Shown piece by piece: positions 22,732-51,069 of a stretch of 64,000 nt of DNA; positions within the stretch are counted from its first letter, which is position 1; each line of letters opens with the position of its first letter. The position numbers and the translations under genes were made by a program. The DNA is from Singulisphaera sp. GP187 (GTDB taxonomy: Bacteria; Planctomycetota; Phycisphaerae; Phycisphaerales; SM1A02). Location of the stretch: the NCBI GenBank assembly GCA_945869475.1, contig CAMBOV010000004.1:1-64000 (forward strand), in the 5' to 3' direction. The notes beneath the pieces were generated by a model, which worked only from the letters and a program-made list of their open reading frames with translations, ran no database searches and was not told the DNA's origin.

Positions 22732-24321
22732 ATGCCACTTCGAACCGTGACCGATGCACACATTTGGACGGGCGATCCCCATGGGCCTTGGGCGAAGCAC
22801 ATGACCCTCGCTGATGGACGCGTTGAGTCGCTGGGCAACATCTCTCGCGACGGCGAGACACTGCACCTACCAGGTGCGTTCATTCTGCCGGGACTCATCG
22901 ACTCGCACGCCCACCTACTGATGGGCGGACTCTTCATGCAGCGGCTCGATCTGAGTGGCGCCAAGAGTCGCGACGATTTCGATCGACTCATCGCACTGCA
23001 CGCGGCCCAACTCGCGCCCGACCGCTGGATCGAAGCATTCGGTTGGGACGAACAACACTGGGATGGCACCCGCCCCGATCTCTCGTGGCTTCGCGCCGCA
23101 GGCGATCGACCTGCGATCGCGTGGAGATGCGATCAACATGTTGTGCTCGTCAATGGTCGAGTGCTCGAACTGCTTGGGCTTGTCGAGAGATGCGACGACA
23201 TTCCTGGAGGCACCGTCGTGCGTGACGAGCGCGGCGCTGCAACGGGATTGCTTCTCGAACAAGCCGCGTGGAAGGTGCTCGGTCCGCGCATTCCGCCACC
23301 AACTCTCGCGATGCGTCATCACGCGTTGCGCGAGGCCTGCGCACACTTTCTCTCGGTCGGTGTGACACGTGTCGGCGCGATGGAGTATCTCGACGACATC
23401 GAGAACGTGTTCTTGCCCGCGAGGGCAGATGGCTCACTCACACTGCGCATCGCCGCAACGGTGCTCGACCGTGAACGACCACTTCCGTTCGCTCGTGCAG
23501 ACGCACTGCACGGCGACGACTTTCTTCGCATCATCGGATTCAAATCATTCGCAGATGGAACGCTCGGCTCATCCACCGCGAGCATGCTCGATCGATACAG
23601 CGACGCACCTGCGTCGACAACTCTGTCCGGTCAAGGCGTTGGATCACTCATGGAACACGCACTCGAAGGGACACTCACCGACTGGATGCGTGAAGTGCTC
23701 GCAGCGGGCTACTCCCCTTCTGTGCACGCCATCGGCGACCGCGCGCTCGAAGAAGTTCTTCGCGCGGCGACTGCCTGCGACACACAGTTGCGCACACGCT
23801 TCGAACACGCGCAAACCGTGCATCCAGATTCGGTGGCGCGTTTTCGCGGCCGTCTCGTCAGCATGCAGCCCTTTCACAAGGCGACCGATGCGCCACTTGC
23901 TCGCACGCGACTCGGCACACACCGCACCAACCGCCTCTTTCAGTTTCGCTCGTATCTCACGCACGGCGCACGACTCGCTTTCGGATCTGACTGGCCGATC
24001 GCCTGCGCTGATCCACTTGAAGGGATGCGCGTGGCAATCACTGGAGAGGCGCTCGATGGATGCGTCTACGGCGCGAACCAGAATCTCACCGCGTATGAAG
24101 CGATCACGGCATACACGTCGGGTGCAGCAGAGTGCCTGGGTCACTGCAACGGCGCTGGGCATTTGAACGCTGGTTCCCCAGCCGACTTTGTCGCGCTTGA
24201 CCGCAATCCACTCGCATGCAATTGGATGGACGAATCGCCCCAAGTCTTACTCACCGTCGTGAATGGAATTGTGCGCTACGACGCGACGGGCAACCACATC
24301 GTCACTACCGCGACGGCGTGA
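22732..24321 (+). CDS. Amidohydrolase family protein (YtcJ-like)
   Basis: A 529-residue metal-dependent hydrolase of the amidohydrolase-3 group. Metal-site motifs are seen in order: DSHAHLL (His59, His61), FADGTLGSSTA in the middle, HAIGDRA near 340, FEHAQTV near 360 and FGSDWPI near 418. Relatives hydrolyse N-acyl amino acids or similar amides; substrate cannot be inferred from the neighbours. There is no signal peptide. The ATG at 22732 sits right before TVTDAHIWTG, the usual first strand. It diverges from the STAS gene and its 3' end overlaps the protease gene by 46 bp. Confidence 0.85.
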   Translation: MPLRTVTDAHIWTGDPHGPWAKHMTLADGRVESLGNISRDGETLHLPGAFILPGLIDSHAHLLMGGLFMQRLDLSGAKSRDDFDRLIALHAAQLAPDRWIEAFGWDEQHWDGTRPDLSWLRAAGDRPAIAWRCDQHVVLVNGRVLELLGLVERCDDIPGGTVVRDERGAATGLLLEQAAWKVLGPRIPPPTLAMRHHALREACAHFLSVGVTRVGAMEYLDDIENVFLPARADGSLTLRIAATVLDRERPLPFARADALHGDDFLRIIGFKSFADGTLGSSTASMLDRYSDAPASTTLSGQGVGSLMEHALEGTLTDWMREVLAAGYSPSVHAIGDRALEEVLRAATACDTQLRTRFEHAQTVHPDSVARFRGRLVSMQPFHKATDAPLARTRLGTHRTNRLFQFRSYLTHGARLAFGSDWPIACADPLEGMRVAITGEALDGCVYGANQNLTAYEAITAYTSGAAECLGHCNGAGHLNAGSPADFVALDRNPLACNWMDESPQVLLTVVNGIVRYDATGNHIVTTATA

Positions 24322-49489: not shown

Positions 49490-50182
49490 TCACTCGCGCG
49501 GTGGCGAGCAGAGCGCTCCCCACTCGTCGACATAACCGTGTTCGGTGATGACGTGCAGAAATGCCGGGAGCAATGCGTGCAGCGTGGTCACGCCTCGCTC
49601 GACGGCATCGCGATTCTGCCCACCGCCGTAGGTCGTGCATCCCAGCGCGAGTTGTCGTGCGGTGAGTCCGATACGTTCCAAGATCCCGATCAAGAGCGGC
49701 GTGGGCGCGGCTGGCAGAAGTGGCTTCGTCGAGAGCTGCACGTCTGTGGTGGCGGGTCTAAATCTCTCGGTGAGATAGGGATCGCTCCACATCGCGGTGG
49801 CATGCACTCGAATCGAATCGAGCACTCCAGGCATAATCGCATCGCGATCCCAGTGCATGATTTGTCGCGAGAAAGAGGCCGTCGCCTCGCGCTGTGGCAG
49901 TGGAGCCCCCAATGCAGAACTCCAACGAGCGAACAGACTTCCCGCTGCGCACCACAGTTCGAGGCAGGCCGTGTCTGCCTCTGTCGCTGAGCGAGTCTGC
50001 GCCACAGCAAGCCACGTCAAGCAGCGATGCACGCGAATGCGCACATCGCCATAAAGGTGCGCTTGCGCGTAGGTGTCGCGTCGCAACTTCCACTGTCCGC
50101 GCAAGACTTCTGCGCTCAGTGGCGCCGCAGCGAAATCAAACGGTGTCGGCAGTGGGGTCGAAGATGGAGTCGAGTCGGTCAT
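49490..50182 (-). CDS. Hypothetical protein
   Basis: A 230-residue soluble protein from the ATG at 50182. It starts with a Ser/Thr/Pro-rich segment, then is mostly helical (VLRGQWKLRRDTYAQAHLYGDVRIRVHRCLTW and later RFRPATTDVQLSTKPLL). It has no export signal, and I recognise no motif. It converges on the M42 peptidase gene and lies 38 bp after the fused crcB gene on the same strand, so it may be the third gene of metH-crcB. It may be limited to this lineage. Confidence 0.65.
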   Translation of the reverse strand: MTDSTPSSTPLPTPFDFAAAPLSAEVLRGQWKLRRDTYAQAHLYGDVRIRVHRCLTWLAVAQTRSATEADTACLELWCAAGSLFARWSSALGAPLPQREATASFSRQIMHWDRDAIMPGVLDSIRVHATAMWSDPYLTERFRPATTDVQLSTKPLLPAAPTPLLIGILERIGLTARQLALGCTTYGGGQNRDAVERGVTTLHALLPAFLHVITEHGYVDEWGALCSPPRE

Positions 50183-50220: not shown

Positions 50221-51069
50221 TCAGGAAACGACACGATCGGTCGCACAAAACCGTTGAGCGAGTGACCATCCAATGGTGGCGGCGAAGAGTCCGCAGACGA
50301 CGTTCGTCGATGCGATCAAGAGTGCCTCACCGAGGTCTGTCTTGCACGCGACGGTGACTTCGAGTGAGAGTGCGCTCATCGTGGTGAGACCACCAGCGCA
50401 TCCCATGAGAAGGAACCGTTCGAGTCTCAGTTTTCGCACGGGCGCGTGGCGAGGTCGGCCCAGAGAATCGATCGCACCAAGCCAGCGAAAAACAAATGCT
50501 GCGAAGGCAGCTCCACACACATTCACACTCGCCGTCGAGATCCACGGCGCGAGATCGTTCGCGCGTGCGCCCAGATCAGCTGCAATTCGCAGTGCGGTTC
50601 CGAGTGCCCCGCCGAGCGCAATCAAACTGAGTGCGCCGCCGTGGTGTGTGATGCGTCGACCACGCAGTGAGGTCGCGAGTGGAACGAGTGCCGCGGTGGA
50701 TGGGTGGGTCACGGGTGTGAGCAGTGCCGCTGCAGTCGCCGCGAGCGGACCCCCCACGATCGTGCCGATGCAGATGAACGCCGCAGTCGACCGACGACGA
50801 GCGTGCCACTGCACCAGAACGTCAACGCACATGCCGCTGAATGTGGTGAATCCTCCAAGTGCACCCGCAAGAAACAGTGCTCGCTGCCAGTCGGTGTCGA
50901 CGATGGTGAGCGCCCATCCTGCGATCGCACTTCCGATGAGATTGATCGCAAGAATCGCCTTCCACGAGGCGATCCCACGGGCGACGCACTCGTCACGAAT
51001 CACACAACGCAACCACGCACCGATCGCCCCACCGAAACATCCCAGCAGAATCCACTCGAGCGCGGTCAC
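50221..51069 (-). CDS. crcB: Double CrcB (Fluc) fluoride-channel protein, two domains in one chain
   Basis: A 282-residue membrane protein made of two CrcB-like halves. Half one (1-118): GGAIGAWLR, AINLIGSAIAG, GGFTTFSGM. Half two (about 145-282): GGALGTALR, SVNVCGAAFA, GGLTTMSAL. Each has four predicted helices; the linker (about 119-145) holds only one weakly hydrophobic stretch. Known bacterial Fluc channels are dimers of single 120-130-residue chains in antiparallel order. The pore Phe pair of TTFSTF is half kept in domain one and lost in domain two. Its start overlaps the metH stop by 4 bp. Confidence 0.85.
   Translation of the reverse strand: MTALEWILLGCFGGAIGAWLRCVIRDECVARGIASWKAILAINLIGSAIAGWALTIVDTDWQRALFLAGALGGFTTFSGMCVDVLVQWHARRRSTAAFICIGTIVGGPLAATAAALLTPVTHPSTAALVPLATSLRGRRITHHGGALSLIALGGALGTALRIAADLGARANDLAPWISTASVNVCGAAFAAFVFRWLGAIDSLGRPRHAPVRKLRLERFLLMGCAGGLTTMSALSLEVTVACKTDLGEALLIASTNVVCGLFAATIGWSLAQRFCATDRVVS

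Follow-up and report, generated by a model that had tools for sequence, protein, structure and literature searches.

One gene in the window (the whole 64,000-nucleotide stretch of DNA that was analysed) encodes two CrcB/Fluc domains in a single reading frame, and this fusion is real. With a probability of roughly 0.7, its product is predicted to be a single-chain Fluc-type fluoride channel that originated by the joining of two overlapping genes for the subunits of a heterodimer. This reading is supported by the two CRCB stretches, the opposite charge bias of the halves, an FEX-like structural model, hydrophobic linkers in relatives, the placement of the halves in a gene tree, an unfused pair at locus L054, low dN/dS, an engineered fusion that works, the helix parity of a shortened relative (L095) and a genome in which no second CRCB locus was found. 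It is weakened by a weak linker, short spans in four relatives, incomplete Phe boxes, an Ile at the Tyr104 position, a shortfall against TIGR00494, the lack of a riboswitch match, two genomes without CRCB and modest tree supports. Judging from sequence, the transported ion would be fluoride.

Two such halves in one chain are known from yeast and plants, and here they occur in an aquatic, uncultured planctomycete. According to the available part of PMC3755343, bacteria have duplicated Fluc pairs and eukaryotes have fused Fluc relatives, and the fusion of subunits with an even number of helices needs a captured inversion helix. The gene bears on an evolutionary question, the route from dual-topology dimers to single chains with inverted repeats. 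Its relatives seem to preserve steps of that change, namely pairs, fusions with differing linkers and a possible loss of one barrel, and genes of the family would lend themselves to expression and testing in E. coli.

The fused gene and its conservation

The Pfam profile CRCB (PF02537) matches the open reading frame in two stretches, at 101.4 bits (E 4.2e-29) against a cut-off of 32.9, which makes the protein a member of that family; the NCBIfam CrcB equivalog model TIGR00494 scores 63 bits, short of its cut-off of 80.45. As in FEX proteins, both CRCB domains lie in one chain, and the linker between them is free of stops and frameshifts. The preliminary description had placed both halves in a single 282-residue chain and seen the family motifs in each, and it was right on both counts: the Gly before the TM1 Arg, the N..G motif and the GG.T motif are invariant in both halves of the 18 fused proteins aligned. 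No second CRCB locus was found in the genome, whose completeness is rated at 96.7%. Features of the locus are collected in Table 1.

Table 1. Features of the fused crcB locus and its two neighbours, in window coordinates
Feature	Position	Strand	Remarks
Fused two-domain CrcB/Fluc gene	50221..51069	minus	282 aa, GTG start; from ORF and Pfam
Domain 1 (CRCB)	50731..51042	minus	R21, N43, Phe77 (F82 position), Met80 (F85 position), Asp83; charge bias -4
Linker, residues 117-142	50644..50721	minus	pLDDT <50 over residues 119-142; putative membrane return before RGRR cluster
Domain 2 (CRCB)	50266..50625	minus	R161, Thr179 (T39 position), N183, Met231, Leu234, Glu237; charge bias +6
Overlap of metH stop and crcB start, 4 nt (GTGA)	51066..51069	minus	
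metH, B12-dependent methionine synthase, 1204 aa	51066..54680	minus	TIGR02082 above cut-off; upstream neighbour, outside the channel
Downstream gene, unknown family, about 230 aa	49490..50182	minus	start at 50182 picked by position after the crcB stop

The fused frame was read without stops in 17 of the 19 genomes of the window's genus, and at least two genomes of a second genus, G023 and G126, carry a fusion as well (a comparison of coordinates shows locus L100 and that of G126 to be one and the same). Pairwise dN/dS is 0.09-0.21 in either half over nine comparisons, in some of which dS exceeds 1, and indicates that both fused halves are under purifying selection. A sequencing error that merges two genes, one of the objections raised beforehand, is ruled out by this recurrence of a stop-free frame in 19 genomes of two genera together with the selection on it. 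Another objection, that relatives might lack the fusion, did not materialise either.

The relatives are draft assemblies; the named ones are metagenome-assembled planctomycetes, and two name Lake Baikal. A survey of the phylum covered 392 genomes with a match in 183, and among the matches listed those of G000, the window's own genome, and G023 were full-length over both halves. A survey of the family covered 181 genomes with a match in 135, and 35 of these were searched again; the fusions reported from both surveys are a minimum. Coverage beyond the phylum consisted of one contig scan with a single peptide pattern, and one scan of viral contigs returned no viral relatives. Some candidates for further fusions were rejected: the open frame 304 of G082 proved to be two ORFs split by an in-frame stop, and L101 and L104 are separate genes. 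At G384:C61:20751-21098, a 348-base match has a profile range over both halves of the fused profile; it is too short for two domains and is probably a single domain oddly aligned. The crcB region of G142 (L127) has overlapping partial matches in different frames, perhaps owing to a frameshift.

Two genomes of the genus, G013 (95% complete) and G014 (85% complete), gave no CRCB match. The metH match of G013 stops at 23277, and on the same contig that of the downstream gene starts at 23468; the loss of crcB there is a clean absence with metH retained. In G014, the downstream gene likewise has no match. A CLC-type protein as a replacement that would explain the loss was considered and rejected as non-discriminating, since 12 of the 19 genomes of the genus encode a CLC, among them that of the window and the two that lack crcB. 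The window's genome encodes a 600-aa CLC-family protein at G000:C1:164293-165387 (L150).

Topology, linker and predicted fold

The preliminary description had left a choice for the topology: either the linker crosses the membrane or the two halves have opposite charge bias. The charge bias, counted as Lys plus Arg per loop, is indeed opposite in all 19 fused proteins, at -2 to -5 in half one and +1 to +7 in half two. Among 36 unfused pairs the two genes have opposite signs in 35 (the exception is 0/+12); the negative member is the first gene in 28 of them and the second gene in 7. Single crcB genes lie near charge balance, from 0 to +3, with L127 and L129 set aside because one is perhaps broken and the other has no visible partner. 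Such opposite bias leads one to expect antiparallel insertion of the halves and a linker that runs back across the membrane: with half one N-out and half two N-in, the chain must re-enter the cytoplasm after helix 4 and before half two.

A linker that is at best weakly membrane-spanning had also been described, and this holds for the window protein, where an uncharged stretch of 21 residues has a best KD of 1.06 and model confidence is low. The linkers of L047 and L100 are clearly hydrophobic, with 18-21 uncharged residues and a best 15-residue KD of 2.35-2.43. As two relatives carry so clear a stretch, the linker is probably a return crossing like that of FEX. In L033, L035, L038 and L040, only 50-54 residues separate the residue-95 column from the residue-153 column (helix 4 to half two), which is tight for two full membrane crossings. 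A fused CrcB in G017 (L045:5245-6072, the same as L095:7971-8795) has neither helix 4 of half one nor the linker; a search of it for a hidden frameshift saw none, and its half one has canonical residues at the T39, F82, F85 and E88 positions. Since helix 4 and the linker are absent together, a form of 3+4 helices with unchanged parity is left, in this one genome.

An AlphaFold (AF2) model of the window protein has a mean pLDDT of 84.3 and a pTM of 0.81. Its helices span residues 3-30, 35-56, 60-74/77-89 and 93-116 in half one and 139-170, 175-197, 210-228/231-244 and 246-275 in half two, which agrees with the four plus four helices counted earlier and reproduces the Fluc arrangement of four helices per half with helix 3 broken. 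In VIA-align, the top match of the model is Candida FEX (9op1_C; Z 24.4, 256 aligned residues, rmsd 3.7, 13% identity), followed by single Fluc chains, which align to half two at Z 12-13, and then by aquaporins (about 8). The predicted fold is therefore an antiparallel single-chain one when set against 9op1_C, and it is Fluc/FEX-like in place of the unrelated fold that had been feared. Foldseek places single Fluc chains first (E 0.008), with FEX absent among the best 50 rows. The L095 model (pLDDT 85.8) aligns to FEX in VIA-align at Z 19.1, with 237 aligned residues and rmsd 4.6, and in Foldseek it finds FEX at rank 3 with rmsd 10.7. All of these structures are predictions from programs that took no account of the membrane.

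By the proposed mechanism, overlapping genes for the two subunits of a heterodimer would have fused to give one chain, in which half one would lie N-out/C-out and half two N-in/C-in. Helix 4 and the linker would form a hairpin that brings the chain back to the cytoplasm, and the result would be an antiparallel pseudo-dimer as in Fluc and FEX. The crossing linker, the active pore and the conduction and export of fluoride are predicted parts of this mechanism, and fluoride would exit passively down its electrochemical gradient.

Pore residues and gene neighbourhood

An alignment of 129 domains gave the pore positions, whose roles were taken from the available parts of PMC5417652 and PMC8315801. 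Each Fluc pore, as described in the former, combines F82 of one subunit with F85 of its partner. In the latter, the Fluc mutants T39V, T39A and T39C are inactive and F82M is active, Y104I is inactive in Fluc-Bpe, and several such changes kill Fluc-Bpe/Ec2.

In half one of the window protein, the residue at the Fluc-Bpe F82 position is Phe and that at F85 is Met; half two has Met and Leu there. Of the four Phe of a homodimer-type channel with a complete Phe box in each pore, the protein retains one. The pore asymmetry noticed in the preliminary description is thus borne out. Its account of the residues, weakened in half one and lost in half two, also stands. Its reading of them half by half calls for correction, since F82 and F85 pair across subunits and decay has to be read across the halves; similar losses occur in unfused pairs, too. 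The 17 genus proteins show a like pattern: 16 of the first halves have Phe at F82 and 15 have Met at F85, and in the second halves the F82 position is occupied by Met, Val or Leu and the F85 position by Leu, Ile or Val. Exactly one half has Thr at the T39 position in 18 of the 19 fused proteins, and both halves have it in L045; by half, this Thr falls in half two in 16 proteins and in half one in 4 (L034, L045, L047 and L100). The Tyr104 position is Ile in both window halves and Ile, Leu or Val in every readable fused half (half one of L045 does not have the position). The Arg22, Asn43 and Ser83 positions are retained in both halves of all 19.

Judged by the Fluc mutants, the half-two pore looks like the better one in the window protein. 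This pore, to which half two contributes helices 1, 2 and 4 and half one Phe77, would probably be the working one, and the other would be vestigial. Against this reading speak the Ile at the Tyr104 position of both halves, the Leu at the F85 position of half two and several unfused pairs (L048, for example) in which neither gene has Thr at T39 but Ile or Leu. The unfused g18 pairs L054, L112 and L116 have Phe/Cys and Leu/Leu at F82/F85, and several unfused pairs of the family also miss some Phe-box residues. Because Phe losses occur in L054, L112 and L116, fusion is unnecessary to explain them, and they may predate it.

The preliminary description had also linked the gene to metH through a 4-bp overlap. 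The overlap itself is real, and a survey of the linkage places metH ahead of the fused gene in 16 of 16 other genus loci; a conserved coupling by overlap was not found. With start codons that were partly chosen by the analyst, the spacing from the metH stop to crcB at 18 fused loci is -4 nt in three (the window, L036 and L046), 0 to 45 in 14 and 710 in L047, and in G035 metH lies about 6 kb away. The gene order is weak evidence, since G013 keeps metH without crcB, and the link appears to be one of conserved order and not evidence of shared function. The downstream gene follows the fused gene in 14 of the 16 other genus loci (the exceptions are L034 and L036). Its product has no significant Pfam or NCBIfam match and is matched in 10 of 21 genomes searched, its own included; the gene lies beside crcB at most loci of the genus and likewise in the genus with the unfused pair, and serves as a synteny anchor. 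No fluoride riboswitch was found at the Rfam gathering score within the window, nor any in the loci of 13 relatives searched.

Origin, alternatives and known systems

In 32 of 36 unfused pairs (loci among L048-L055 and L101-L135), the start of the second gene overlaps the stop of the first by exactly 4 nt. As the related unfused genes are overlapping pairs of this kind, the fusion looks like a local bacterial event. In a quick tree of bacterial sequences (88 rows, 129 columns), all 19 fused first halves fall among the genes that come first in related pairs (SH-aLRT 92), and 17 of the 19 second halves, those of the genus, among the genes that come second (SH-aLRT 87). The second halves of G023 and L100 fall elsewhere, near another pair genus and on a long branch. 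L054 is an unfused pair with the 4-nt overlap, and the gene that immediately follows it is homologous to the downstream gene of the window. From this synteny and the tree, a change from pair to fusion inside the family is the simplest reading. The tree is compatible with one such event or with two: a branch with a support of 12 separates the 19 fused first halves from the rest, and half two of G023 and L100 stands apart.

Among other explanations, a Fluc-type fold repurposed for another ion or metabolite after the loss of the Phe box is unlikely. It would account for an incomplete Phe box in both window pores, for Ile, Leu or Val in place of Tyr104 and for the placement after metH that is conserved in the genus. 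Against it stand the retained Arg22, Asn43 and Ser83 positions, the weakness of the gene order given metH without crcB in G013, and a genome in which the search turned up no second CRCB locus that could assume fluoride export. It is less probable still that the halves insert in parallel and that two fused chains pair antiparallel, with dual topology of the whole chain. The window linker, which is not a clear transmembrane helix and is not resolved in the model, would allow this; the opposite charge bias in 19 of 19 proteins, the match of the single-chain model to FEX over both halves and the clear hydrophobic linkers of two relatives point the other way. In the available part of PMC3755343, moreover, an engineered antiparallel fusion works and parallel ones have minimal activity.

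Acquisition of the gene from a eukaryote as an FEX, without fusion in bacteria, would fit the FEX-like architecture and fold and the likeness of the first-half motif (TTFSGM in the window protein, SSFSSM in yeast Fex1p according to the available part of PMC5417652). It is nonetheless very improbable, given the grouping of half one with first genes and of the genus half two with second genes of bacterial pairs (in a tree without FEX), the downstream gene family common to the fused locus and an unfused pair, and PDB Fluc chains that outscore FEX by sequence against the window protein. There is just as slight a chance that the gene is a decaying remnant or an assembly artefact joining two genes. 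The draft state of the relatives' assemblies and the lack of helix 4 of half one in L045, one genome only, might raise that suspicion, which the same fusion in 19 genomes, the dN/dS of both halves and the lack of a visible hidden frameshift in L045 allay. Under the preferred reading of a bacterial fusion, the FEX-like architecture apparently came about by convergence. Tentatively, at a little under even odds, bacteria reinvented the FEX architecture within a family that contains single genes, pairs overlapping by 4 nt, fusions whose inversion linker is plainly hydrophobic (G023, G126), others in which it is weaker or shorter (the window's genus) and the seven-helix form of G017 with one barrel, and in which sublineages appear to keep opposite pores.

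No report of a natural bacterial CrcB fusion was recognised in the literature searched, which included few subscription papers and is no proof of absence. Fluc/CrcB heterodimer pairs, such as La1/La2 of Lactobacillus, resemble the window protein in having two homologous CRCB subunits of opposite charge bias (in 35 of the 36 pairs measured), but they are separate chains, whereas the window protein is one chain with a linker. FEX proteins (yeast Fex1p and Candida FEX, 9op1) share with it two CRCB domains per chain and an antiparallel fold, the latter by model in the window protein; one pore is less canonical in FEX and appears to be so in the window protein, and in both the first half has a Phe at the F82 position and Met at F85. 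They differ in that the tree and synteny suggest a bacterial origin for the window protein, in that FEX has a clear linker helix where the window protein has a weak linker, and in that half two of the window protein also lacks the F85-position Phe (Leu234). The closest design is Laf-TM, a laboratory-made fusion of La1 and La2 through a glycophorin helix (described in the available part of PMC3755343); the window protein has the same design, but it is natural and its native linker is weakly hydrophobic.
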